A stretch of DNA of 49,376 bases from Pirellulales bacterium (GTDB lineage: Bacteria > Planctomycetota > Planctomycetia > Pirellulales > S012-138): positions 1-49,376 of the forward strand of contig JALCBR010000025.1 of assembly GCA_028066245.1 (NCBI GenBank), in the 5' to 3' direction. Positions 1 to 13,838 of this stretch are shown one piece after another. Both the position numbers and the translations under genes were made by a program. The notes below the pieces were generated by a model. That model was given only the letters and a program-made list of their open reading frames with translations. It ran no database searches and was not told the origin of the DNA. The first letter of the stretch is position 1; each line of letters starts with the position of its first letter.

Positions 1-740
1 TGCATAAACAACGCGGCCGTCAACACAGGCAAGGCAAACGCTTGCAAAATGGCGGTGATGAACATCGCCCAAATGGTCATGGGCATGCGGAACATAGTCA
101 TGCCAGGAGCGCGCATCTGGATGATGGTGGTCATGTAGTTGACGGAGCCCATCATCGAAGAGACACCCACAAAGATGAGTCCGTACAACCAGAGGGTCTG
201 CCCTGCCAGGCTGGCGGGCGCAGCCCCCAGCACAGCGGAGAGCGGTGGATAGGCAGTCCAGCCAGCGGCTGCGGCCCCTCCTTCCACAAAAAAGCTGCAC
301 GTCATCAAAATAAACGCCGGCCACATGAACCAGTAACTGAGCATATTCAGCACGGGGAAGGCCATGTCATCCGCGCCAATCATCAGCGGGATGAGGAAGT
401 TGCCAAACGCGCCCGCCAGGATAGGGATGATCACAAAGAAGATCATCACGCTGGCGTGCATCGTGAAGAGCATGGTGTAGAACTCGGGTGAGATCTGGCC
501 GCCTTCGGCTCCAAAGAGCATCGGCCCGATGACCGGCATTTCTTCCCATGGCCAGGCCAGTTGCCAGCGCACGCCCAAAGCCAGCAAGCCTCCCACAATG
601 AACCAGAGCAACGTGGAAAACAGAAACTGAATGCCGATGACCTTATGGTCCAGCGAAAAAACGTACGTCGACAGAAACTTGCCAATCGACATCGAATTGG
701 CAGCTTGTTGTCCGTGCGCTCCAGCGACGGTCGCGCTCAT
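1..740 (-). CDS. coxA: Cytochrome c oxidase subunit I, N-terminal part (cut by window edge)
   Basis: This is the catalytic heme-copper subunit of an aa3-type terminal oxidase in the cytoplasmic membrane; it reduces oxygen to water and pumps protons. Only about 246 codons are inside the window and the gene runs off at base 1. The translated minus-strand frame shows family signatures: SLDHKVIGIQF near residue 29, then FTMHASVMIFF with the His expected to bind the low-spin heme, then AGAFGNFLIPLMIGADDMAF and several hydrophobic helices. The ATG at 738-740 overlaps the TGA of coxB as ATGA, so the two are probably translationally coupled. It is the last visible gene of a long respiratory cluster. 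The copper-B and high-spin heme ligands lie beyond the window and cannot be checked. Confidence 0.95.
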   Translation of the reverse strand, partial: MSATVAGAHGQQAANSMSIGKFLSTYVFSLDHKVIGIQFLFSTLLWFIVGGLLALGVRWQLAWPWEEMPVIGPMLFGAEGGQISPEFYTMLFTMHASVMIFFVIIPILAGAFGNFLIPLMIGADDMAFPVLNMLSYWFMWPAFILMTCSFFVEGGAAAAGWTAYPPLSAVLGAAPASLAGQTLWLYGLIFVGVSSMMGSVNYMTTIIQMRAPGMTMFRMPMTIWAMFITAILQAFALPVLTAALFM

Positions 741-1489
741 TGGTCCCTCATTTGTTCTTCGGCTTGCCTTTGCAGCCAGGCGTCAAATTCCTCTCGCGAT
801 TGAACCGTCAAACGGCCCTTCATCTTGTAATGCCCCCAGCCGCATAATTCTGCACACACTAGGTCAAACTCGCCTTCCTCTGTTGCACGGAACCACACCG
901 GGATCATGCTACCGGGAACGGCGTCTTGCTTGACACGGAAGTTAGGCAGAAAAAAACTGTGCAGAACATCGTCACTTTCCAAGTGAATCAAGATCTGCTC
1001 ATTCACCGGCACGCGTAGATCATTCGGCGGCACATAGATGTCATCTGGCGTGTCAAGTTGATTGTCAGGACCCGTGTATTGGATCCGCCATTCAAATTGA
1101 CGGGCGACGACCTTGCACGTAGGTGCCATGTCCGGCTTGTCGATCTTGGCTTCCGCCCAAGCGTTCATCTGGTACAGGGCAATGAACAGCAGCGTGGCGG
1201 CGGGAACAATCGTCCAGACAATCTCCAGGTTGTGACTGCCATGGGTGAATTTGGTCGGTTCATCGTTAGCCGCTGCATCGTACTTCCACATAAACCAGAA
1301 CAGCACGGCTTCCGTCACGATAAACACAGCGCCGGTCAAATACAGGATGAAGTAGTAGAGACCATCGATCTTCTCACCGTTCTCGGAGTAATCTTCCGGC
1401 AGCGAATGATCGTACACCGGCGCGATGAGGAACGTCGCGACTCCCAGGATTGGGACCAGCAAGAACGTAATTGTCCAAAAACGGTTCAC
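737..1489 (-). CDS. coxB: Cytochrome c oxidase subunit II with CuA site
   Basis: This subunit accepts electrons from a cytochrome c or cupredoxin at the dinuclear CuA centre and passes them to subunit I. The 250-residue product has two membrane helices (about 5-25 and 45-68) followed by a periplasmic cupredoxin domain. The CuA ligands are all visible: His177, then Cys212, Glu214, Cys216, His220 and Met223 in the pattern CAELCGWGHYKM. No c-type heme is fused to the C-terminus, unlike caa3 oxidases, so the electrons must come from a separate carrier; the neighbouring heme and copper proteins are candidates. The start is GTG with AGGA about eight bases upstream. The end overlaps coxA by four bases. 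Confidence 0.97.
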   Translation of the reverse strand: MNRFWTITFLLVPILGVATFLIAPVYDHSLPEDYSENGEKIDGLYYFILYLTGAVFIVTEAVLFWFMWKYDAAANDEPTKFTHGSHNLEIVWTIVPAATLLFIALYQMNAWAEAKIDKPDMAPTCKVVARQFEWRIQYTGPDNQLDTPDDIYVPPNDLRVPVNEQILIHLESDDVLHSFFLPNFRVKQDAVPGSMIPVWFRATEEGEFDLVCAELCGWGHYKMKGRLTVQSREEFDAWLQRQAEEQMRDQ

Positions 1490-1565: not shown

Positions 1566-3077
1566 TCACCGCCCTGTAGGGGTGGCAATCTCCGGCGTAG
1601 GCGTGCGGAACCCTCGCTCATATTGCAGTGAGAGCACGTAATCGACGATGTGCCAGATTTCTTCTTCCCTGATCGGCTGCGGCGTGATGGCTTCGGGGTC
1701 TGTTTGTGCGGCTGCGTCTTGGCCTGCGGTAGCTGAGCCGGCGTTACCACTTTCCGCGTTGGAGTTGGCATCGCCAGTCTGCGCGTTGCTGCCGTCAGCG
1801 CCGGTTGCGTCTCCAGCGTCCGCGTCATTCCGGGCGGCGTCGCCGGTCTGCGCGGCAGCGCTTTCGACATTGCCGAAGCTATCGTCCTCTTTCAAGATGC
1901 TGGCCGCCGGCATCGGTGTTCCTGTGATTCCGTTACGAATTCTGCGGTAGATATCAATTGGGCGGCGGCCGCCGCGAAAAACACCCAATTGCAAGTTGCG
2001 AGCTTTGAGCTCCTGCAACGGCAGCAGCCACATTTCTGCGCGCTCGTGCTCGTCTTCGACCAATGCCTTGGCCGTATTCCAATCGTCATAGTTGAGTTGC
2101 CCGCCATCGCCCAACCCTGCGGGTCCGTGACACTTGACGCATTGGCCCTCATTCTCAAAGAGCTGGCGACCACGTTCTATGGATGCCTGCTTGTCTGCTT
2201 CGGTCATCTGTTCCCAAGGAATGGGACGCGGAACAGGTTGGGTAACGGTCGCATTGTCCCAGTTATTGACAATCCCCTTGATCCGATTGGTGACCACGAG
2301 CATATCGATCGAGTTGTCATCGACAAAAACCGTCATGACTTCGTCAAAGAGGTCAGCTCGAAGTGCCAATTCATATTCACCGCGCAAAGCCAGGTACTTG
2401 ACGTATTCGACTAGCGCCGTGATTTCATCGGGCTTAAGGGCAATTCCGAATGCTTGCATTCCTGTCCCGTGCAAACCTTGCTCGATCGTCCTTCGTAGGT
2501 CGTCTTCAGTTGGTTTCTGTTTGCTTCCTGTTGAAGTAAATTTGAAAATCCCTCGACGAAAATCGCGAGGATATGGGTCCAGGAAGCGGGCTGTGGGACC
2601 AGCACCATCGCCGGAAACACCATGACAGTGAACACAATGCTCTCGGAAGAGCCCACCGAGCCGGTAGCCGTTTTCAACCAGATTTCCGTTTGTATCAAAC
2701 TGAGCCTCAACGTCTTTGCCGCCAGTTGGGCCAGCTGCCTTTCGGAGAAGATTAAGTTTCAGGCCGGTCTCCTCAGGCGCAAATGGGTCGTCCGGTGTGC
2801 CAAATGTTGCCGCCAACGCGGCCCGTAACTCGAAATCGGCTTGGGTGAGTTCGGCGACCCTAATACTAACTTCCTCTTCAATTACCGATTCCGATGCATC
2901 GTTGGCTTGCAGGTCAGAGCGTGCCCTTTCAAGCCGCGCTTCCACGGACTCCTGGCCTTCAAGATTGAGCATGAACTCAATGGGACTTCCTTGCCCGCAC
3001 CCGATTATGCAAGAAACCGCGAGAGCAACGGCAAAAGTCGCAAAGACTCTGTGGGAATAACTTTTCGTAACTCTCAT
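1566..3077 (-). CDS. Diheme c-type cytochrome lipoprotein
   Basis: This is an electron-carrying cytochrome attached to the outer face of the cytoplasmic membrane. The first 27 residues form a lipoprotein signal ending in IIGC, with Cys27 as the likely lipidated residue. Two CxxCH heme motifs lie at 148-152 (CVHCH) and 313-317 (CVKCH). Probable sixth ligands are Met207 (GTGMQAFG) and Met389 (GTPMPA). Residues about 400-465 are a low-complexity stretch of Ala, Gly, Asp, Asn and Thr that splits the second cytochrome domain between its Met loop and its last helix (WHIVDYVLSLQ). The gene lies 76 bases upstream of coxB, so it is a plausible donor to CuA. The ATG is preceded by GAGGGA at a good distance. 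Confidence 0.9.
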   Translation of the reverse strand: MRVTKSYSHRVFATFAVALAVSCIIGCGQGSPIEFMLNLEGQESVEARLERARSDLQANDASESVIEEEVSIRVAELTQADFELRAALAATFGTPDDPFAPEETGLKLNLLRKAAGPTGGKDVEAQFDTNGNLVENGYRLGGLFREHCVHCHGVSGDGAGPTARFLDPYPRDFRRGIFKFTSTGSKQKPTEDDLRRTIEQGLHGTGMQAFGIALKPDEITALVEYVKYLALRGEYELALRADLFDEVMTVFVDDNSIDMLVVTNRIKGIVNNWDNATVTQPVPRPIPWEQMTEADKQASIERGRQLFENEGQCVKCHGPAGLGDGGQLNYDDWNTAKALVEDEHERAEMWLLPLQELKARNLQLGVFRGGRRPIDIYRRIRNGITGTPMPAASILKEDDSFGNVESAAAQTGDAARNDADAGDATGADGSNAQTGDANSNAESGNAGSATAGQDAAAQTDPEAITPQPIREEEIWHIVDYVLSLQYERGFRTPTPEIATPTGR

Positions 3078-3159: not shown

Positions 3160-4056
3160 CTACTTGTTCAACAAGTTGGGGTTTACCTTGATTGGCTCAA
3201 GGATTCTTTCCTCTCCGGCGGCCAACTCCAAACTGAAACGGCCTCTCCTCCATGTGGCATCCGCGTTAAGAGGTCCACTCCGCTCGTGCCAAACTTGGAA
3301 TTCAAGCTTGATGCCAGCAGGCACATTCTCGATGCGGAAATTTCCCTCAGCATCCGTTGTGGCGAAGTAAGGATTATCTCTGGGAATGACCCAACCTCGC
3401 ATCCACGTATGAACCGTACAAGTGACGGCGACGCCGCTGGTCTTATCGAGACCGAAACTCGCTTTGAGTTCACCCCCACTTGCTTGGAGCATCTCATTAA
3501 AACCGCTATCGCCCGCCGGCGTGCAGTTCGCATTGTGTGCGACGGGATCGTCATTCGTAACTCGCAGAGTTTGCGGTAACCAGACCCCAAGGACGTGCGG
3601 TTCAAACCGGCAGCCTTTGTTGCTCATCGTTACATCGGTATCCGGCGAATAGGACGGATGGGGTTCGCTAAACCCACGCGGCGTTCTTAGGAAGATGAAC
3701 ACATTGGCGAGGCCCATCGAATCGGGATCGACGACAAGCGACTCGTCCCGAAGATTGAAGACTCCACATACCTCGGCGTCTTTGGTTGCAATGATAGGGG
3801 CCTGCGAAGGCGCGCTAGTTGCATCGTAAAGGAACTTGCCGGAAATCGTTGCCCATCCCGTAGGCTGCAGACTTGCCGTGGCGCCTCCACCTCCTTCGCC
3901 GGAGGCAAGTTGGTCACGGATTCGGTAGACATTGTCCCAATCCTTGTCTGGTACTGCCGCTGATTCACGAGACTGGTCAGAGCACGCGCCGAGTGCGAAT
4001 ACGATTAACGCAACAAGCCAAAGCCGGTAGTCGTGAATTGTCAATTTCTTCCTCAT
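3160..4056 (-). CDS. Cupredoxin-like lipoprotein, paralogue of the upstream gene
   Basis: This is a predicted exported lipoprotein of 298 residues with a signal ending LGAC (Cys25). The C-terminal half carries a type-1-copper-like ligand set: His174 (VAHNANC), then Cys213, His216 and Met219 in CTVHTWM, followed by a carboxypeptidase-regulatory-like beta module (TTDAEGNFRIENVPAG). The neighbouring gene at 4281-5060 has the same order of motifs, so the two are tandem paralogues. A role as a copper electron carrier, or in copper delivery to the oxidase, is inferred from the ligands and from the position between cytochrome genes. I chose the ATG at 4056 because AGGAG lies seven bases upstream and the signal peptide then begins at residue 1; a longer reading to 4119 adds an unlikely leader. 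Confidence 0.8.
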   Translation of the reverse strand: MRKKLTIHDYRLWLVALIVFALGACSDQSRESAAVPDKDWDNVYRIRDQLASGEGGGGATASLQPTGWATISGKFLYDATSAPSQAPIIATKDAEVCGVFNLRDESLVVDPDSMGLANVFIFLRTPRGFSEPHPSYSPDTDVTMSNKGCRFEPHVLGVWLPQTLRVTNDDPVAHNANCTPAGDSGFNEMLQASGGELKASFGLDKTSGVAVTCTVHTWMRGWVIPRDNPYFATTDAEGNFRIENVPAGIKLEFQVWHERSGPLNADATWRRGRFSLELAAGEERILEPIKVNPNLLNK

Positions 4057-4280
4057 GTCAAAGCTCCTGGACAACCTACAAACTGAAATCACTACTCGTT
4101 CTTCGAGAAGAGCACCCAAGACATCATCGGGCTGGAAACAGAATGCAACTTGCTCGCAGTCATTTTGTTGAAGTGGACAGGATTGACATTGATCGTTCCC
4201 AGGTCCATGGTGACTGCACTCTTGATGGCTTCTTTGTAGTCGATTCGCTCTGGCCAGGCGCCAAACACTGGGCGCAGGGC

Positions 4281-5060
4281 CTACTTCTCAAAAATGCTTG
4301 GTGGGACGTGAACGTCTTCTCCCAGTGAATTCTCGCCAGGCTTGATTGTGAACATGAATCGACCACGCTCCCAATCATTGATGGCCATGTATCCAGACTC
4401 CTCATGGATAACTTGGAACTGCCATTCACCTACCGGAATGTTTTCAATTGTGAAGTGCCCATCTTCATCCGTGACAGCGAAGTATGGGTTCTTTCGCGGC
4501 AAGACGTAGGCCTTCATCCAGGGATGAATGTTACAAGAGACGGGCTGCAAAGTTCTCTGCTCGCGCGTGAACTTGGCGATGTATTGCTGGCCCGGCGTAA
4601 GCTGTTGGTTGAATGTTCCCGTCCGATCACCAATGGAGGCACAGTTGCAGTTGTGGGCAACCGCGTCCGTATTTGTTGCAACGAATTCTTGCTTTCCCAT
4701 CCAAAACGGAAGCACGTGCGGGACAAACGCGCCACCTTGATTGTCCAGCGTCACCCGTTGTAGTGTGCCTGCCGGCAACGCATCTGGAACGGGAACGTCT
4801 TTGCTGGTGACATAGACCACGACATTTGCAATCCCGCCGCTTTTGCCAACGATTAACGATTCTTCCCAGATCTTTTTGGTAAACGCAGCCTGATCTTTGG
4901 TGGGAATGATCTCGACACGCTCGGGCGCGTTTCCGTCATAGACAAAGCGACCACTAAAATTGCCGGTCTGCTGCGCTTGCAAGGCAGGCGCAAGAACCAA
5001 TGCAATCGCAGCAATCACCACGATTGACGCCACGCAAGATAATCTACGTGTGAGAAACAT
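4281..5060 (-). CDS. Exported cupredoxin-like protein
   Basis: This 259-residue protein starts with a Sec signal peptide (hydrophobic residues about 10-27, probable cleavage after LQA near residue 29) and has no lipobox. The copper-type motif is His136 (AVAHNCNC), Cys176, His179 and Met182 in the pattern CNIHPWM, followed by a beta module (VTDEDGHFTIENIPVG). The pattern His, then Cys-x2-His-x2-Met, is that expected of plastocyanin-like or sulfocyanin-like sites, but carboxypeptidase-regulatory-like proteins with similar motifs are annotated simply as hypothetical, so metal binding is an inference. The gene follows the giant cytochrome by 13 bases and is probably co-transcribed. The ATG at 5060 is preferred because GAGAGGG lies upstream; in-frame ATGs at 5081, 5084 and 5120 would overlap the cytochrome gene. 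Confidence 0.8.
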   Translation of the reverse strand: MFLTRRLSCVASIVVIAAIALVLAPALQAQQTGNFSGRFVYDGNAPERVEIIPTKDQAAFTKKIWEESLIVGKSGGIANVVVYVTSKDVPVPDALPAGTLQRVTLDNQGGAFVPHVLPFWMGKQEFVATNTDAVAHNCNCASIGDRTGTFNQQLTPGQQYIAKFTREQRTLQPVSCNIHPWMKAYVLPRKNPYFAVTDEDGHFTIENIPVGEWQFQVIHEESGYMAINDWERGRFMFTIKPGENSLGEDVHVPPSIFEK

Positions 5061-5073
5061 GCGCTCGTCCCTC

Positions 5074-8000
5074 TCATTCATCATTGGGAGCAGGCGACGA
5101 ACCATCAGTGGTCGCACCAACTGGTGACTGGTTGATCAGCGGGACAATGGACGTTCCCCGCCGCATGTACCAATCGTAATTGAGCAGCAAGTCCACCACT
5201 GCTTGAAGTTGATCTTCCGAAAGACCGCCGTGGATCAAATCGCCTGTTGGCACCGAGAACAAATCCGGACGGATCGGCTTATCCCTGGGGAAATTAACCG
5301 GCATCCCGGTGTAGGGAAGCTTACGTTTTGGGTTGGCCAGCCAAGGGTAGAGGAATTCCGGCCGGATGCGCTCGTAGGTTCGCTCCAAGTTGGGCGCTAG
5401 AGCGGTGAGATCGCCACCAGGCGAATAGTCGCCAATCTTATGGCACTTGATGCAATAGTTGCTATTAGTGACGATCGTCATCGCATCCTTGAGTCGCACC
5501 AATGTTTCGGCATCGGCTTCCAATGCCTCTCCGGATGTGCTGAGTCGGGACTCATCGGTCTGGAACAAACTTCGAGACTCAAAGTCGTATGGATAGTGCG
5601 CGTTGTCCCGTGCAGCAAAGTAGTTGGCCAGAGCGCGAGCTTCATCCCGAGATAGATTGAATTTAGGCATCCTCAGAACGGCCGCCGGCCGCAACGGAAC
5701 AGGCTCCAACATGAAATTGTAAAGCCATTCCGTTTGAACCTTCTCACCCTCATTAAAGAGCGGCGGCGGACCCCACCCCCAGGCGTCAAGGTATTTAGCT
5801 GCATTGTTGACTTGGCGAACTCTGCCCAGTGCACGGTCATGGATATAGTTAGCAAAGAATCCACCGCGAGCCGGCAAGTGGCTGACAAACCGATCTGAAC
5901 GCACTTCAACGGAATCGCCTGCTAGGAATCCTTGCCCGTGAATGAGTGCTGGCTTCCACAGATCGATAAATTCACTTGTTGGATCGGTTTCCTCGTCACC
6001 CTCGACAAGAACAACCACGCCTTCCTCGTCAGTTGTTTTGCGTCCATAGACCGTTGCAGTGCCCAAGCCACGCGCGTCCAACTCGCGGCTTTGCGCGACT
6101 TCTTGCTGTGTATGGAACTGGCGGAAGACCTCATACTCATCTGAGGGGAACGGAGACTCTTCTGCGAACATTTCCGGATCATAGTTGAACGTCCACTTGT
6201 CCGGCTCAAGTTCATGGCAGCCGGTGCAATTGTATTTCTCCAAAACGATGTTCCCAGCGTTGATCGCTTGCTGGCGCTCGCTGGGGTTATAGACGTACTT
6301 GGGAGCCGGCGGGTCTGCCACTAGGCCCAAAACAAACGTCATCACGCTTTCCCGCTCTGCTTCGTCAAACGGGAACATTGGCATCTTGAGCCGCTCGTTG
6401 TAGCTCTTCTGTTCAGTCTTGGAGTAATCGTAACTCCGCGGCGCCCGCAGCTTCTGCCACAGGAAACCGGTTCGCTGATGGGCCAGCAACGAGTTCAAAA
6501 AATAGGCGAGGCCCGGCTCACCGCGGTCAGAGAGTTCTTGGACGCTCAAGGAACTGTGATCACCGTGATCGCCACTATCATGATCACCACCGTGCAAAGC
6601 GGGCATCTGAAACAGGTTGCCATGCATGGATTCCGCGTGACCAATGGACAGTTGGTCTTTGTTCATGTCTGTGACATGAATCAGTTGACTGACTTGCTCA
6701 AAGGCAAGCTTGGAGGCGTCTTTTCGACCCCAATCCGCTAGCGCGGTGCCGATGGGCTTAGACGCCTCAAAGCCCGCAATATCGTGGCAGCCGTAGCAAC
6801 CATATTTGCTAACAGTCTTCCGCCCTAAGTAATTCAGCAGGTGCTCTTCACGCGCCGCAGAGTCATCCGCGAACTCACCGACAAGCTCGACTTCGTCGCC
6901 TTTGAGTTCGACACCTAACTCAGGTGGAATGCCCTCCGCTAAGAAACGTCTCGCCTGACTGCGAGTGAAAGCCCCCTCCAAATGCTCCAGCGCCAGTTCC
7001 TCCATGGCACTTTTGAACTCGTCGCTTGCTTTGTCTGGAATCGCATGCTTGGGCGTCCATCCATTGTCTTGTGCCAGCAGGTAAGCTGCGATATCAGCCG
7101 CCGGGTCATAAAAAGGCGCAGTGCTGACATCCGTGTTAACTGGATCACCAGCAGCTGGCCCGCCCGCGGTTAGTGGCAATCCTGTTGGCCCCAACAGGCG
7201 TTCCGGTGTCAGGAATACGTTGGGCATCTTGGTCCGCGCGTGATATCGGTTGGGATCACGCAACCAAGAGGTGAGCCATTGTCGCCCCTTTTCGCCTTTG
7301 AGCTTGCTGCCCAGATTGGAGAGGTCTGGTCCCTGATTTTGAGTGGCTTCCGGGAAACTGCCATGGCTATGGCACGCCAGGCAGCCCTTGGATTCAAACA
7401 ACCATTTCCCGCGTTCCACATCCGCTGGCAACACTCCCTCAGGCATATCAGCGGGATTGTCGTAAGCGAATTCCTGGCTGATGGCCTGCAAATAGTGCGT
7501 CAACGCGTATGCTTCAACTTGTTCTAACCCTTGGGTGTGTCGCGGCTCATCAAATCCCTTGCCGCCTTCGGGAGAGTACGGGAGAAAGTGCCCATACTGA
7601 CCGAAAAACTGCGGCATTTTCGTATCGGGACGGAAATCGTTGGGCTGCATGATCCAGCCGTAAAGGAACTCCTCGTCAATCTTTGAAGCAAGATAGCGCA
7701 AACTAGGACCGGACTTACGCATGCCGCCGGGTACATCTTGATCGGCAAGTACAGAGCCTAGCTTGTGCAATTCAGACCGGAGATAAGAAGGCCCTTGGCT
7801 TGAAAGAGCCGCCCTTAAACTGTCTGCCGTGACGAGTTGCTCCAATTGGTGCCGGGCGGGCGTATCATCAACATTGCTGATGATACGCCCACTCAAAGAA
7901 ACGACATCCTTCTTGAATCCGAGCTCCTCCTCCAAGGGAACAAGCTCCTGCTCCAGGCGCTTAACCTCATCTTGCCGCTGTTCTATCTGGCTCTGGAGGT

Positions 8001-10323
8001 CGTCATTCTGACTCTGAAATGCATCTATTTGAGGCTGAACTTCATTGAGCCGCTGATCTTGCTCTGCTTCGATGCGCAGTTTGTTTTGCTCACCTCGAAT
8101 GTCACTCTGCTGCGTGCGCAGGCTCTCAATTTCTTGGTTGAAACGTTCGACTTCAGCTTTGCGCACATCGACTTCATTCTGCAGAACACGAATGCCCCGT
8201 CCCATAAACACCGATGAGCCCCTAGCTTGACGTGCGTTGTCGGTCAACCGTGGATCGATGTGCAATGATTGAGCCGCCGGAACATAGTTTGGCTCCAGGC
8301 GGAGGTCCGGACCAATAGTCTCGCCAGTGCCAGCATAGCCATTGACTTCGTGGCAGCCAAAGCAACCGTATGTTCGCACCAAATCGTAGCCGGCCATCAA
8401 CTTGGGCGCAGGCGGATCGGGAAAGCGTTCGCTGGGACTCAACTCGGCAACCGAATGGTGACAGCGAAGGCAACTGCTCTCCAGAAATCGCTCCGGATAC
8501 ATGGGGTAGATCCAATGATGGTTGTCAAACCATTCATGATCGCCAGACCATTTGCTGAGCTCGTTGAGATCATTGGGAGAATGCGAAGCCCATTTGAATT
8601 GCGTGGCGTTTCCTTGCCCTTCATGGCAGATCGTGCAGCCGATGTCCTTAAACGGATGCGGACTCGAATCCGCCCCATACAAGTCAAGCCGCGGATGAGC
8701 ACTGAAAGGCTGCTTAACTCCCCGGCGAATGTCGAGCGTGATCGCTTGCCCCCACTCCACATTATCCAACAAGTAACGATACGCCTGATCGATCGACGTG
8801 ATCCTAACGCTCACGCCATCTACGTAGACGCGATCAATGACATCGCCACGTTTCAAGAGTGCATTCGCGGCAACCGTTCGGGGTGCGACGACCTCAATCA
8901 GCGCATCATCGGGATCAAAGATCCCTTGCGCTGCCAAGCTGAAGCCATAAAATTCCATCAGCAGGTCATTAGGCGGAGTATTCGGCTCCACGTCCGGTTG
9001 GGCTTCTGGAGTGGCCAAAACCAAATTCGTGACCAAATGCTCAGCTTCGTAATTTGGATCTGCGACGGTGCCTGGCGCCGTCTTGTCGATCCCTAGGTGA
9101 CATGTGATGCACCGATCAAAACGGGCAACCTGCTTGTGATTGTAGTTTTGCGTCAGATCTGGCAACCAGATGTGCTTAACTTCGATCTCGGAGTTATTGA
9201 ACGCATCAAGGATCGGAAGCGTCACCAACCCTCGCCCAATGCGATCTCCAGTTCCGGCGGCTGCTTGATAAGCTTTCTCCAGATTGTCCAAGTCCAACTT
9301 GAAGGACGCAACCGCCTTCGTTGCGGCATTGACGTTGCTGTTGATGATTCCCACCACCTGATCCAGTTTCAAGCGATGCGAGTTGGCGGCCTCGTAATCG
9401 AAGTTCAGCTTGGCAACGGTTGACTGAAGCCCCTCAACGCTGGCCTTTAATTTGGCAACATCTGCGGGCGGATCCCCGTTGTTAATGGCAATGCCCAGCA
9501 AGCTGAACTCGCCGTCAAACTCAGCACGCATGAACTTGAGGCTCTGTTGCAAAGTTTGCTCGCGGAACAAAGCTTGGGCACGCGCGTCATCAAGCACTTC
9601 GTCCAAAACTGCACGGGCTTGCGTTGTTGCGGACTGATCCCCGGCAGCTTGAAGGTCCGCAAGGGCACTTTGGATGTCCGCGATGAGGCCATCCGCTTTC
9701 GTGGCTTCGAGTTGTCGCTCCGCTTCGGAAAAAAACGTGTCGGCTTCGTCGGCAAGATTGGCGATTGTATCGGCCAAATCATTCGTGGCTCGCTGCAATC
9801 GCTGCTCGGCTTCGGCATCTTGGCGACCTTCGAGTTCGGCAAGGCGAGAATCGACGGCGGCTTGAACGATCCGCTGAGACGTCAAACCGGCCTGACGAAG
9901 CGTCGCGGTCAATTCGGCCATCGCCACGGCACGGGCCGCGCTCAGCTCCCCCCACTCGTTCACACAGCCTCCCGGGAGTTGCGCCTCACTACCCATTGCG
10001 AGCCGGGCGTCATCGTAGCGAAGTTCTGCGTAGAGCAACTGCAACAGCGATTCTGCCGGCACTTCGATTTCGTACTTTGCCAAAATGTCCTGGCGAGAGC
10101 CCAGACCGTTGGTGTAAGCCAAGTCCGTGGTCTGCTCAAGAATGCGGGACTGCAAATCCCAAACTTCGAGCTTGCTGTAGTAATCTTCCTGGTACTGCTT
10201 CCATTCGCGATCGTGGTCTTGGATCAGCATCCAGACAGTGAACAGCAACATCAACAGGGAACTGATCCCGAAGATGAGGTGCATTCGCTTTTGATCGCGC
10301 CAGGTTTGCTCAGTTGCGGGCAT
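5074..10323 (-). CDS. Giant membrane-anchored octaheme cytochrome c with PDZ-like and coiled-coil regions
   Basis: The product is 1749 residues with eight CxxCH heme motifs at 405-409, 563-567, 618-622, 654-658, 981-985, 1176-1180, 1366-1370 and 1624-1628. A single N-terminal membrane helix (about 15-34) without a cleavage site should anchor it with the bulk outside. Residues about 140-350 are helical and charged, like a stalk. A PDZ-like stretch (about 455-540, with LLKRGDVIDRVYVDGVSV) sits between hemes 1 and 2. A coiled coil (about 715-800) lies between heme 4 and its likely Met ligand 903. Other KMP-type ligands are Met1033, Met1314, Met1552 and Met1674. A His/Asp-rich patch is at 1244-1256. 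It follows the Rieske, b6 and subunit-IV genes, so it probably replaces cytochrome c1 or f and carries electrons towards the oxidase. Its length is far beyond any standard bc-complex cytochrome. Confidence 0.9.
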   Translation of the reverse strand: MPATEQTWRDQKRMHLIFGISSLLMLLFTVWMLIQDHDREWKQYQEDYYSKLEVWDLQSRILEQTTDLAYTNGLGSRQDILAKYEIEVPAESLLQLLYAELRYDDARLAMGSEAQLPGGCVNEWGELSAARAVAMAELTATLRQAGLTSQRIVQAAVDSRLAELEGRQDAEAEQRLQRATNDLADTIANLADEADTFFSEAERQLEATKADGLIADIQSALADLQAAGDQSATTQARAVLDEVLDDARAQALFREQTLQQSLKFMRAEFDGEFSLLGIAINNGDPPADVAKLKASVEGLQSTVAKLNFDYEAANSHRLKLDQVVGIINSNVNAATKAVASFKLDLDNLEKAYQAAAGTGDRIGRGLVTLPILDAFNNSEIEVKHIWLPDLTQNYNHKQVARFDRCITCHLGIDKTAPGTVADPNYEAEHLVTNLVLATPEAQPDVEPNTPPNDLLMEFYGFSLAAQGIFDPDDALIEVVAPRTVAANALLKRGDVIDRVYVDGVSVRITSIDQAYRYLLDNVEWGQAITLDIRRGVKQPFSAHPRLDLYGADSSPHPFKDIGCTICHEGQGNATQFKWASHSPNDLNELSKWSGDHEWFDNHHWIYPMYPERFLESSCLRCHHSVAELSPSERFPDPPAPKLMAGYDLVRTYGCFGCHEVNGYAGTGETIGPDLRLEPNYVPAAQSLHIDPRLTDNARQARGSSVFMGRGIRVLQNEVDVRKAEVERFNQEIESLRTQQSDIRGEQNKLRIEAEQDQRLNEVQPQIDAFQSQNDDLQSQIEQRQDEVKRLEQELVPLEEELGFKKDVVSLSGRIISNVDDTPARHQLEQLVTADSLRAALSSQGPSYLRSELHKLGSVLADQDVPGGMRKSGPSLRYLASKIDEEFLYGWIMQPNDFRPDTKMPQFFGQYGHFLPYSPEGGKGFDEPRHTQGLEQVEAYALTHYLQAISQEFAYDNPADMPEGVLPADVERGKWLFESKGCLACHSHGSFPEATQNQGPDLSNLGSKLKGEKGRQWLTSWLRDPNRYHARTKMPNVFLTPERLLGPTGLPLTAGGPAAGDPVNTDVSTAPFYDPAADIAAYLLAQDNGWTPKHAIPDKASDEFKSAMEELALEHLEGAFTRSQARRFLAEGIPPELGVELKGDEVELVGEFADDSAAREEHLLNYLGRKTVSKYGCYGCHDIAGFEASKPIGTALADWGRKDASKLAFEQVSQLIHVTDMNKDQLSIGHAESMHGNLFQMPALHGGDHDSGDHGDHSSLSVQELSDRGEPGLAYFLNSLLAHQRTGFLWQKLRAPRSYDYSKTEQKSYNERLKMPMFPFDEAERESVMTFVLGLVADPPAPKYVYNPSERQQAINAGNIVLEKYNCTGCHELEPDKWTFNYDPEMFAEESPFPSDEYEVFRQFHTQQEVAQSRELDARGLGTATVYGRKTTDEEGVVVLVEGDEETDPTSEFIDLWKPALIHGQGFLAGDSVEVRSDRFVSHLPARGGFFANYIHDRALGRVRQVNNAAKYLDAWGWGPPPLFNEGEKVQTEWLYNFMLEPVPLRPAAVLRMPKFNLSRDEARALANYFAARDNAHYPYDFESRSLFQTDESRLSTSGEALEADAETLVRLKDAMTIVTNSNYCIKCHKIGDYSPGGDLTALAPNLERTYERIRPEFLYPWLANPKRKLPYTGMPVNFPRDKPIRPDLFSVPTGDLIHGGLSEDQLQAVVDLLLNYDWYMRRGTSIVPLINQSPVGATTDGSSPAPNDE

Positions 10324-10377: not shown

Positions 10378-11745
10378 TCAAATATTAAAGAAGAATTCCG
10401 GAATGGCCACGATGTATTTCAAGTTGAATGCCCAACGCAGAGCCATCTTGATAGGCAGTGACGCCATGAATAGCAGCAGCGTGACCATCGTCATGTAACG
10501 GACGAAGCCCATCTTGATGAAGAATTTACGAAACACGGTCGTAGCCAACAGTGGCGGTAGCACTATGAAGTAGAGCGCCACCGACAATAACCCCAACCAC
10601 TCTCGCTTGAGCACGACCAACAAGGAATCAAACGTACCCATGTCACTTGTGACCGTCGGCACGCTGGTACCGAAAATGTCATTCCAGAGGATTTGCGAAA
10701 GGTCGATGTTGTTAAGAACGAGCACTTTGTGCGCATCCCACTCCTCAAATGGGCCAAAGAAGTTCCAGTTCGGCCCGCGTAAGAATGTGCCGAGCACGAT
10801 CAGCGTGACCCAAAGCTCCAGAAATCCCACCTGGAAGATGATATAGGCAAAGCGGCGCTGTGAGATGGTGTAATACCCGTTCCCCTTCTTGTTGAAATCC
10901 AGGTAGGGGATGGCCATCAAACCAACGATCACCAAGCTGGGCAGCACAACGCCGGCCATCCACGGATCGTAGTAGACGAGCATCTCCTGAAGACCGAGGA
11001 AGTACCACGGCGCCTTGGAAGGATTGGGTGTCTTGACCGCTGAGGCGGGCTCTTCCAAGGGAGCTTTGAGCAAGATCGCCCAGATCAACAGCAAGGCTGT
11101 AATGGCGATCATGCAGATGAGTTCCGTGTAGACGAGATCCGGCCATACAAGAACCTTCTCGTCGTCATCCTTTTCCAGCGGCGGCAAACCCTCCACAGCG
11201 CGGTCATCGTTAGTCACGGATTTGTAAGTTGCCAGCCAGGTAAAGAAGCCGAGCAAAAACACGAGCGCGACAATCGGCACGTTGTCCGGCTTGGCCACAA
11301 TCTCCCAGAAAGGACGATTGGTCATCGCCAGTCCCATCAACAGCAAAGACGCGTTGAAAAGCGTCCAAGCGACGACTGGCTTGACAAAAAATCGCCGCCA
11401 GTAGTAGGCGATGATCAAAAGCGCAGTGGTGGCGAGTGTATAGACGATGGCGCCAGGGTTGCCCGTCAACGCGGCATTGGCGTTGCGAATAAACCACCCT
11501 GGCAGCTTGGGGGGAATCCCACCCATCGCTGCCGCCGCCAAGATGACGCAAAGCATGGACAGCGATAGCCACCCTAACACGTTGGTGAAAGCCACACCGC
11601 CGAGGTTAAACCAGACCTTGATTTTATCTTTGCCGGCTTGCCACAGGTATAGGGAAGCCGTGGCGTTCATCAAGGCAAGCGCAAGATAGAAAAAGCCGAG
11701 AAACTCAGCCGAGCGTGCCTCAAAACTCGGATCGAAGCCGTGCAT
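10378..11745 (-). CDS. Cytochrome b subunit-IV-like protein with extra membrane helices
   Basis: This is the C-terminal half of a split cytochrome b, which helps form the quinol-oxidation site of a bc/b6f-type complex. The subunit-IV core starts near residue 205 (VWPDLVYTE) and contains APWYFLGLQEM, which occupies the place of the canonical PEWY motif, and the following helices up to about residue 350. Ahead of the core are about 200 residues with five predicted membrane helices, and after it two more, giving about ten in 455 residues compared with three in a normal subunit IV of about 160 residues. No heme-ligand His pairs of the b6 type are seen, which fits the split arrangement. The gene lies 55 bases upstream of the giant cytochrome and 146 bases downstream of the b6 gene. 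Confidence 0.88.
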   Translation of the reverse strand: MHGFDPSFEARSAEFLGFFYLALALMNATASLYLWQAGKDKIKVWFNLGGVAFTNVLGWLSLSMLCVILAAAAMGGIPPKLPGWFIRNANAALTGNPGAIVYTLATTALLIIAYYWRRFFVKPVVAWTLFNASLLLMGLAMTNRPFWEIVAKPDNVPIVALVFLLGFFTWLATYKSVTNDDRAVEGLPPLEKDDDEKVLVWPDLVYTELICMIAITALLLIWAILLKAPLEEPASAVKTPNPSKAPWYFLGLQEMLVYYDPWMAGVVLPSLVIVGLMAIPYLDFNKKGNGYYTISQRRFAYIIFQVGFLELWVTLIVLGTFLRGPNWNFFGPFEEWDAHKVLVLNNIDLSQILWNDIFGTSVPTVTSDMGTFDSLLVVLKREWLGLLSVALYFIVLPPLLATTVFRKFFIKMGFVRYMTMVTLLLFMASLPIKMALRWAFNLKYIVAIPEFFFNI

Positions 11746-11891: not shown

Positions 11892-12668
11892 TCAGAGCGG
11901 CCCACTGATCCCGCCATCTTTGCGTACCCGCCAGAAGTGAATTGCCAACAGAAAGGCAACTACCAAGGGAATCGCGATGCAGTGCAAGATGTAGAACCGA
12001 TTGAGCGTCTCTTCGCCCACAAAGCGCGCACCGAGAAGCGCAAATCGCGCATCAGAGGCGTTCGTGATCATATCAATACTGCCAATGCTGAGCAGTTGCT
12101 GTCCCGGACCTTCATTCCCCAAGATAGGTGTTGCTCGCGCCATATTGGAACCAACCGTGATGGCCCAGATTGCCAACTGATCCCAGGGCAACAAGTAGCC
12201 AGTAAATGACAACAGCAATGTCAACAACAGCAAGATGACGCCAACCACCCAGTTGAATTCGCGCGGCGGCTTGTAGCTACCGGTGAGAAACACGCGATAC
12301 ATGTGCAACCAAACAGTGATCACCATCGCATGGGCTCCCCATCGATGGATTTCGCGCAGTATTCCCAGGCTGGTCACGTCGCGCAAGTCAAGAATATCGT
12401 GATACGCCCATTCCAGCGTGGGCCGATAGTAGAACATCAGCAGCACGCCGGTAATCGTCTCGACGAGAAACAGAAAAAACGTAACGCCTCCCATACACCA
12501 GGTGTAGGAGAGAGCGATTCCCTGCTTCTTGACCGAGACCGGATGCAAGTGCAGGAAGAAGTTGGTGAGCATCACAACCACACGATTCCGCCGATCAAGC
12601 GGCGCAGGGTGGCGGAAAACGCTCTTCCAAATCTGGCTGTTGCGAATGATCTCGCCCAGAGAAGCCAT
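11892..12668 (-). CDS. petB: Cytochrome b6-like subunit of the bc/b6f-type complex
   Basis: This is the N-terminal, heme-carrying half of cytochrome b, which moves electrons between the two quinone sites. It has four main membrane helices. Counting from the ATG at 12668, the two bis-His heme pairs are His108/His122 (14 apart) and His229/His244 (15 apart), the spacing of cytochrome b6 rather than of mitochondrial-type cytochrome b. Cys58 ([10 protein letters not shown]) falls about 50 residues before the first His, where b6 proteins hold the Cys that covalently binds heme ci. The end [10 protein letters not shown] matches the b6 C-terminus. A TTG nine bases upstream (12677) is an alternative start; neither has a strong ribosome site. 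It is 120 bases downstream of the Rieske gene. Confidence 0.93.
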
Positions 12669-12788
12669 GGATGTCAACCCGCTGATTCAGGCGCAGTTCC
12701 TGTCAAGAGTGCGCCATAACAATGATTCGTGAACTTGTAATCTTGCCCGTCACTGGTGAGCAGCCCTCACCTAAGAGCAACGGAAACG

Positions 12789-13838
12789 CTACGCCGGCAC
12801 AAAACTAGCCGGATTGTCCCAATCTCCTTTTTCCTGCTGGAACGTTACGCTCTTGTCGACTTCCAACTGCCCATCTCCAGCAACGCTAATGGCATATCGC
12901 TCAAGAGGCCTTGGTGCAGGCCCTTCAAAGTTAATGCCGTCCACATAAAACCCGCTGCCGTGGCAAGGGCATTTGAATTTTTGCTCTGCCTCTAACCAGT
13001 TAGGCGTGCAGCCCAAGTGCGTACAAACCGTGCTTAGTGCAAAGATTGCTTGCTCGCCGTTGTATGGGGCATTAACCACCCACACGCCGTACTGTGCTTT
13101 GTATTTGGTCTCAACAACGCCCGGAGCGATATCTGTGGGGAAACCAACTTTAAATTTGCTCGGCGGTTCAATGCGGATATTTGGGAACAGGTAACGCGCC
13201 AGACCCAAAGTCCAAACGACCATCGTCATCGTCAACGAGGTGAAGCCGACACCGATCCCGGTACCAACCATCAAGCCCATCACGGAAAGAAAGCCACGCC
13301 GGTCTTGCTTGGCGCCTTTCTTTGCGGCCGGCTTGGCATACCCTGGCTTTTCCGGCATGGGAGGAACTTCAAGCTTGAGCTTACCTGCTTTGGCTTTGGC
13401 AACAGGCGCTGCCGGCTTATCTTTGGAAGTACCTTCACCCTTTGAAACGGGCCCGCGCTTTGCGCCACCACGTGCGGCATCCAAGATACTAGACGTTGAC
13501 ATCGCGCCTGCCGCTGGCTTGGCCGCCATCGGCTTTTCAGCAGATTTTTTCGCCACTGGCTTCGCAATGGGTTTCTTTGCGGCTGGCTTGGCCTCTGGGT
13601 TGCCACCACCTTTGGAGCGAGCTGCGGCAAGGATGTCGGCAACGCTTGGGCGTTCACCCGAACCAGACTTGCCGACAGGCTTTGGCTTCTCAGAAGCTTC
13701 AGAGCTTTTTGCTTCAGACGCGGACTCGGTTTCTTTCTTCCCTGGCTTATCCTCGCCGCTGGCACCGCCGTCGCTAGAGCCACCTTTGCGCGCCGCCGCC
13801 AGGATCTCTTCGACCGACATTTTCTTTTTGGCAGCCAT
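12789..13838 (-). CDS. Rieske 2Fe-2S protein with long Lys/Ala-rich N-terminal extension
   Basis: This iron-sulfur subunit takes one electron from quinol and hands it to a c-type heme. The Rieske fold is at the C-terminus, with cluster ligands Cys272, His274, Cys290 and His293 (CTHLGC and CPCHGSG); Cys277 and Cys292 are the usual disulfide pair. A twin-arginine-like anchor (DRRGFLSVMG, residues 179-188) precedes a single membrane helix (about 187-212). Before that come roughly 175 cytoplasmic residues rich in Lys, Ala, Pro, Ser and Gly, which is not typical of the family (normal total length about 180-200). Within it a short motif recurs three times: SVEEILAAAR at 8-17, SVADILAAAR at 65-74 and STSSILDAAR at 114-123. 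The gene is first in the respiratory cluster; its ATG has AGGA eight bases upstream. Confidence 0.95.
   Translation of the reverse strand: MAAKKKMSVEEILAAARKGGSSDGGASGEDKPGKKETESASEAKSSEASEKPKPVGKSGSGERPSVADILAAARSKGGGNPEAKPAAKKPIAKPVAKKSAEKPMAAKPAAGAMSTSSILDAARGGAKRGPVSKGEGTSKDKPAAPVAKAKAGKLKLEVPPMPEKPGYAKPAAKKGAKQDRRGFLSVMGLMVGTGIGVGFTSLTMTMVVWTLGLARYLFPNIRIEPPSKFKVGFPTDIAPGVVETKYKAQYGVWVVNAPYNGEQAIFALSTVCTHLGCTPNWLEAEQKFKCPCHGSGFYVDGINFEGPAPRPLERYAISVAGDGQLEVDKSVTFQQEKGDWDNPASFVPA

Follow-up and report, generated by a model that had tools for sequence, protein, structure and literature searches.

An octaheme cytochrome with PDZ and coiled-coil insertions as the probable c-type subunit of a planctomycete Rieske/cytochrome b complex

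Background

The closest published systems to the locus described here are the anammox complexes with hexa- or octaheme c subunits. In Kuenenia stuttgartiensis, the Rieske/cytochrome b complexes (Kuste4569-4574 and Kustd1480-1485) contain such proteins instead of cytochrome f (PMC12954380). In one anammox complex, as modelled, the multiheme subunit has long helices that wind around the complex, and a catalytic role has been proposed for the HAO-like octaheme protein of one of them (PMC12954380). In the actinobacterial bcc-aa3 supercomplex, the diheme QcrC of complex III electronically links to the aa3 oxidase (PMC8361435). MamP, which acts in magnetosome iron chemistry, combines PDZ and magnetochrome domains and forms a dimer made mainly by PDZ contacts (PMC3971196). 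The electron path from complex III to oxygen in aerobic planctomycetes is poorly described in searchable papers. For the planctomycete operon analysed here we propose, with a probability of roughly 0.8, that a b6f-like Rieske/cytochrome b complex has a giant octaheme protein in place of cytochrome f/c1, and that this protein passes electrons to the co-encoded aa3 oxidase.

The operon and its relatives

The window, i.e. the whole stretch of DNA analysed (49,376 nucleotides, contig JALCBR010000025.1 of assembly GCA_028066245.1, a Pirellulales bacterium), comes from a 4.94-Mb draft genome that is 97.5% complete. The 1749-residue reading frame with eight hemes described in the initial annotation was confirmed and lies on the minus strand, where the gene order is Rieske protein, b6-like and petD-like cytochrome b halves, giant cytochrome, two cupredoxins, diheme lipoprotein, CoxII and CoxI:

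12789..13838, minus: Rieske iron-sulphur protein with a long N-terminal extension (PF00355, E 1.2e-8)
11892..12677, minus: cytochrome b6-like N-terminal half, 261 aa (NCBIfam ExtP 6.7e-78, cytochrome b6 6.6e-55)
10378..11745, minus: petD / subunit IV-like C-terminal half of cytochrome b (PF00032, E 1.2e-5), 455 aa, larger than usual
5074..10323, minus: giant octaheme c-type cytochrome P0001, 1749 aa, ATG start, no internal stop
4281..5120, minus: amicyanin-like cupredoxin 1, with invariant His and Cys-x2-His-x2-Met
3160..4119, minus: amicyanin-like cupredoxin 2, a candidate lipoprotein with LGAC in its signal region
1566..3077, minus: diheme cytochrome c (Pfam Cytochrom_C 2e-19), a candidate lipoprotein with IIGC in its signal region
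737..1489, minus: CoxII with CuA motif
3..638, minus: CoxI, cut by the contig end

A Rieske gene beside cytochrome b, the split of the latter into b6-like and subunit IV-like halves and an adjacent multiheme c gene are the features from which a Rieske/cytochrome b complex with a multiheme c subunit is predicted. The CoxI and CoxII genes are the sole COX1 and COX2 found in the assembly; this count was made in a draft of 97.5% completeness, where a contig end interrupts the operon. No NAD(P) oxidoreductase subunit was found among the operon ORFs scanned. The Rieske extension carries in the window three repeats of the type S-[VT]-x-[DE]-ILAAAR, which occur in 1-4 copies in most Planctomycetia relatives and are absent from compact distant lineages.

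The two secreted neighbour proteins are predicted to be blue-copper proteins. Their profile matches amicyanin (8e-5), and the ligands H156, C196, H199 and M202 are invariant in 28 sequences, of which only the upstream His is independent evidence since these sequences were pre-selected for C-x2-H-x2-M. Furthermore, one relative (L004:10001-15592) has, in the octaheme ORF itself, a Pro/Ala linker after the cytochrome and then a C-terminal amicyanin-like domain carrying the motif CNIHPWM, so that the two are physically linked there.

Using a profile of the C-terminal region, the family was found in 66 of 149 genomes of the class (E <= 1e-35) and, at E <= 1e-15, where the weaker matches include paralogues, in 123 of 294 genomes of the phylum. 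Exactly eight CxxCH were present in 70/70 collected relatives with a full gene, taken from loci picked by their largest multiheme ORF, a few of them from closely related genomes. Nearly all loci that had sufficient DNA on their flanks kept the order Rieske > cytb > petD > octaheme, in the Pirellulales as well as in other Planctomycetia and in distant families of the phylum (group names of the relatives, such as Planctomycetales or Phycisphaerales, are inferred). Adhaeretor mobilis (L002) is among the bacteria with this operon. Most octaheme loci run on into cupredoxin, diheme, coxII and coxI genes. In some distant relatives (e.g. L086, L089, L090 and L095) there are no oxidase genes near the octaheme locus, indicating that the acceptor may vary. 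Several genomes of the order have no octaheme gene, yet they have another cytochrome b. Genomes of the same order, some of them without the octaheme complex, also encode related proteins with five hemes and about 1400-1475 aa (L060, L061, L087 and L088); considered as family members, these proteins were set aside as paralogues. No homologues of the octaheme protein were found in the viral contigs searched, and a PDB sequence search with it gave weak NorC-like matches to heme 5 and nothing else.

Membrane anchor, hemes and axial ligands

The protein begins with a conserved N-terminus, MPATEQTW, as seen from N-terminal conservation in the relatives, followed by:

10216..10290, minus: N-terminal transmembrane segment, residues about 12-36, from hydropathy; the sole hydrophobic segment
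9214..10212, minus: putative helix-rich stalk, residues about 38-370

The helical character of the stalk is predicted from composition, periodicity and coiled-coil matches in the relatives. According to the initial annotation the stalk separates the hemes from the membrane; it may do so, but in the anammox counterpart, as modelled, the long helices wind around the complex (PMC12954380). An apparent N-terminal extension of 550 residues in L115 was discarded as read-through upstream of the likely start MPASDETY.

Hemes and candidate ligands are the following:

9097..9111, minus: heme 1, CITCH (405-409), predicted bis-His
8623..8637, minus: heme 2, CTICH (563-567)
8458..8472, minus: heme 3, CLRCH (618-622)
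8350..8364, minus: heme 4, CFGCH (654-658)
7369..7383, minus: heme 5, CLACH (981-985), Pfam Cytochrom_C 3.3e-13
6784..6798, minus: heme 6, CYGCH (1176-1180)
6214..6228, minus: heme 7, CTGCH (1366-1370)
5440..5454, minus: heme 8, CIKCH (1624-1628)
8695..8697, minus: H543, candidate distal ligand
8656..8658, minus: H556, candidate distal ligand
8581..8583, minus: H581, candidate distal ligand
7615..7617, minus: Met903, distal ligand of heme 4
7225..7227, minus: Met1033
6382..6384, minus: Met1314
5668..5670, minus: Met1552
5302..5304, minus: Met1674

All eight CxxCH motifs counted in the initial annotation are there, against 0.004 expected in composition-matched shuffles. Its five Met ligands also held: all of them, and the three His, are invariant in an alignment of 32 sequences, while the remaining MP sites, 961 and 1241, vary. 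Three invariant His outside the motifs plus five invariant Met amount to one distal ligand for each of the eight hemes. Hemes 1-3 are thus predicted to be bis-His, and we infer the pairing of H543, H556 and H581 with individual hemes; hemes 4-8 would form class-I-like His/Met domains.

A coiled coil inserted into the heme-4 domain

Between heme 4 and Met903 the window protein has a long insertion:

7711..8313, minus: insertion in the heme-4 domain, residues 671-871, 201 aa, between two GPxLR motifs, GPDLR (671) and GPSLR (872)
7876..8199, minus: coiled-coil helices inside this insertion, residues 709-756 and 759-816

The coiled coil proposed at about 715-800 was recovered as these two helices, with a heptad period of about 3.5 and pLDDT mostly 80-96 in AlphaFold2. 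In these predictions (residues 372-960 and 630-1720, four sequences each) the coiled coil was the only confident part, the mean pLDDT being 46.4 and 41.9, respectively. A segment between heme 7 and Met1552 (residues about 1376-1481; 5881-6198, minus strand) was predicted as beta strands with pLDDT of about 40-64 and is perhaps another inserted domain.

The distance from the heme-4 Cys to the Met is shortest in compact relatives, at 47-50 residues. It is about 78 in most of the Planctomycetales-like relatives, rises to 131-172 in most Pirellulales, and reaches 249 in the window protein. The insert itself is absent in compact relatives, has 83-124 residues in most Pirellulales and 119-124, without a long coiled coil, in the window protein's own family; helical inserts of similar length were found in L006 and L063. 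The compact forms, with only 47-50 residues from heme 4 to its Met, show Met903 to be the ligand of heme 4. They also show that the coiled coil was inserted in certain lineages and, as had been suggested, interrupts a cytochrome fold. The chain must come back to the same heme-4 domain, what would favour a hairpin rather than a continuous rod.

A PDZ domain at several positions

8704..8961, minus: PDZ domain, residues 455-540, between hemes 1 and 2

A PDZ-like segment at this place was also part of the initial annotation, and it is the family rather than the single protein that bears it out. A search with the window protein alone stayed under the Pfam cut-off (PDZ_6, E 0.049 for the whole protein and 6e-4 for the segment), but 28/28 aligned family segments matched PDZ_6 (best 2.8e-11), 27 matched PDZ_2, and the family profile of the segment matched the DegP/DegQ PDZ domains in PDB at 1.6e-12. 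The pLDDT of the region was about 25-60 in the AlphaFold2 prediction made with four sequences.

The segment between hemes 1 and 2 is absent from the compact relatives and from L059. Actually, three PDZ positions were found, depending on the lineage: this one, a second between hemes 5 and 6, and a third within the domain of heme 6. Relatives from another family of the class have the domain between hemes 5 and 6 instead of the first site (L079, PDZ_2 3.2e-9; L096, 5.4e-6; L098, 6.3e-7; L103, PDZ 1.6e-5; L105, 3.2e-5; L081, 1.7e-4; L082, 0.0015), and L080 has it between heme 6 and its Met (5.4e-8). The PDZs of these last two sites are related to each other (1e-12) and those of the first are more distant. 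In a quick tree (49 sequences, 805 core columns) the groups with different PDZ sites were separated with five state changes, some placements being unsure because of long branches. The domain may have been relocated or captured independently. A fourth site in the stalk of L114, matched by a home-made HMM at E 2e-3, had no Pfam support and was rejected.

Candidate PDZ ligands were sought at the C-termini of the neighbouring subunits. That of petD, IPE-[YWF]-F-[LF]-N-[FI] (IPE-aromatic-F-[LF]-N-[FI]), is strikingly conserved across the phylum, and that of the Rieske protein has a hydrophobic pattern. Both patterns are also kept in lineages without PDZ, so that they do not co-vary with the domain, and they were rejected as ligands.

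Proposed role and alternatives

Several observations support the replacement of cytochrome f/c1 by the octaheme protein: the recurrence of the Rieske > cytb > petD > octaheme order across the phylum, the eight CxxCH in all the relatives collected together with eight invariant distal ligands, and the precedent of the hexa- and octaheme c proteins of Kuenenia (PMC12954380). The link to the aa3 oxidase is drawn from the sole COX1 and COX2 found in the genome being in the operon, and that to the copper proteins from the L004 fusion and the amicyanin profile match with invariant His, Cys, His and Met. The single N-terminal helix would anchor the protein, whose helices and hemes would lie in the periplasm. 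Electrons from quinol would pass through the Rieske centre to the heme chain, and from there to the CuA of the aa3 oxidase, either directly or via the amicyanin-like proteins and the diheme lipoprotein. PDZ, coiled coil and the other inserts have been added to a conserved core of eight hemes and most likely serve docking or the assembly of dimers or supercomplexes. Two further Rieske/cytochrome b loci of the same genome (L064 and L066, on contigs C72 and C45 of G000) could share the job; one extra locus codes for a 613-aa cytochrome b with two CxxCH at its C-terminal end.

The initial annotation had gone further and described a "spaced, self-assembling electron wire". The multiheme electron carrier in this description stands, and an electron wire inside a respiratory complex is well supported; in favour of self-assembly nothing was found. 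Many hemes, a PDZ and a strong coiled coil might suggest that octaheme molecules polymerize through the last two into a long-distance wire or filament, but this is extremely improbable. The coiled coil is missing in most relatives and hence cannot be essential to conduction, and a gene in a Rieske/cytochrome b and aa3 operon, with Rieske, cytb and petD as constant neighbours, points to a job in a respiratory complex. The single N-terminal membrane anchor also speaks against polymers, as do the five hemes with invariant Met ligands, spaced about 190-330 residues apart. In known nanowire cytochromes (OmcS type) all hemes are bis-His, and here five invariant Met ligands were found.

A redox enzyme or sensor in which at least one heme is catalytic, for example in nitrite or peroxide reduction, is very unlikely too. 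What speaks for it is the HAO-like octaheme protein that Kuste4569-4574, an anammox locus, has in addition (PMC12954380), but the three invariant His and five invariant Met give a sixth ligand to all eight hemes, none of which appears as an obvious catalytic one, and no heme-enzyme family was matched above cut-off, the match to the SoxX model being a cytochrome c match. The octaheme protein might also belong to the Rieske/cytochrome b complex and have a main acceptor other than aa3, the oxidase genes being merely co-transcribed. Several relatives with the complex and without nearby cox genes (L086, L089, L090 and L095 among them) fit this possibility, and the copper proteins and diheme lipoprotein could feed elsewhere. 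We consider it unlikely, if worth keeping in mind, since coxII and coxI are kept in the same order at most loci and the operon holds the only COX1 and COX2 found here.

If true, the transfer of electrons from the octaheme subunit to aa3 would be a third wiring between complexes III and IV, in addition to soluble cytochrome c and the actinobacterial QcrC. It would involve an octaheme c subunit spread across the phylum, which combines bis-His with His/Met hemes and is tied to blue-copper proteins and aa3 oxidase by the operon and in one case by a fusion. With the repeated PDZ insertion, the addition of docking modules to a central subunit of respiration can be put to the test. We propose tentatively, and with the odds against it, that this one subunit gained or relocated a PDZ at least three times because the domain is required for holding the Rieske/cytochrome b dimer together or for attaching it to its oxidase, and that the octaheme protein and its copper partners are a permanent bridge within a III-IV supercomplex of planctomycetes.

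Comparison with known systems

We found no description of the PDZ-bearing octaheme version in the open literature; subscription papers may hold one. The octaheme protein would work like QcrC, which has two hemes versus eight and lacks PDZ and stalk. A compact relative, L076, matched the NCBIfam QcrC model over hemes 4-5 (3.8e-9, 36 bits versus a cut-off of 200), and the window protein was not among the matches of this model. MamP resembles the octaheme protein in having a PDZ joined to c-type hemes; no magnetochrome match was found in the latter. The amicyanin pattern His...Cys-x2-His-x2-Met is present in both neighbouring copper proteins, but unlike in amicyanin the copper domain is followed by a carboxypeptidase-regulatory-like domain and is fused to the octaheme protein in L004.

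The Kuenenia complexes and the planctomycete operon have in common a b6-like cytochrome b, an enlarged subunit IV, a Rieske protein and a multiheme c. The planctomycete operon differs in having neither NAD(P) oxidoreductase nor HAO-like genes and in adding cupredoxins and an aa3 oxidase. The octaheme protein itself, which may be likened to the Kuenenia c subunits by the make-up of the complex, differs from them by its PDZ and heme-4 insertions.
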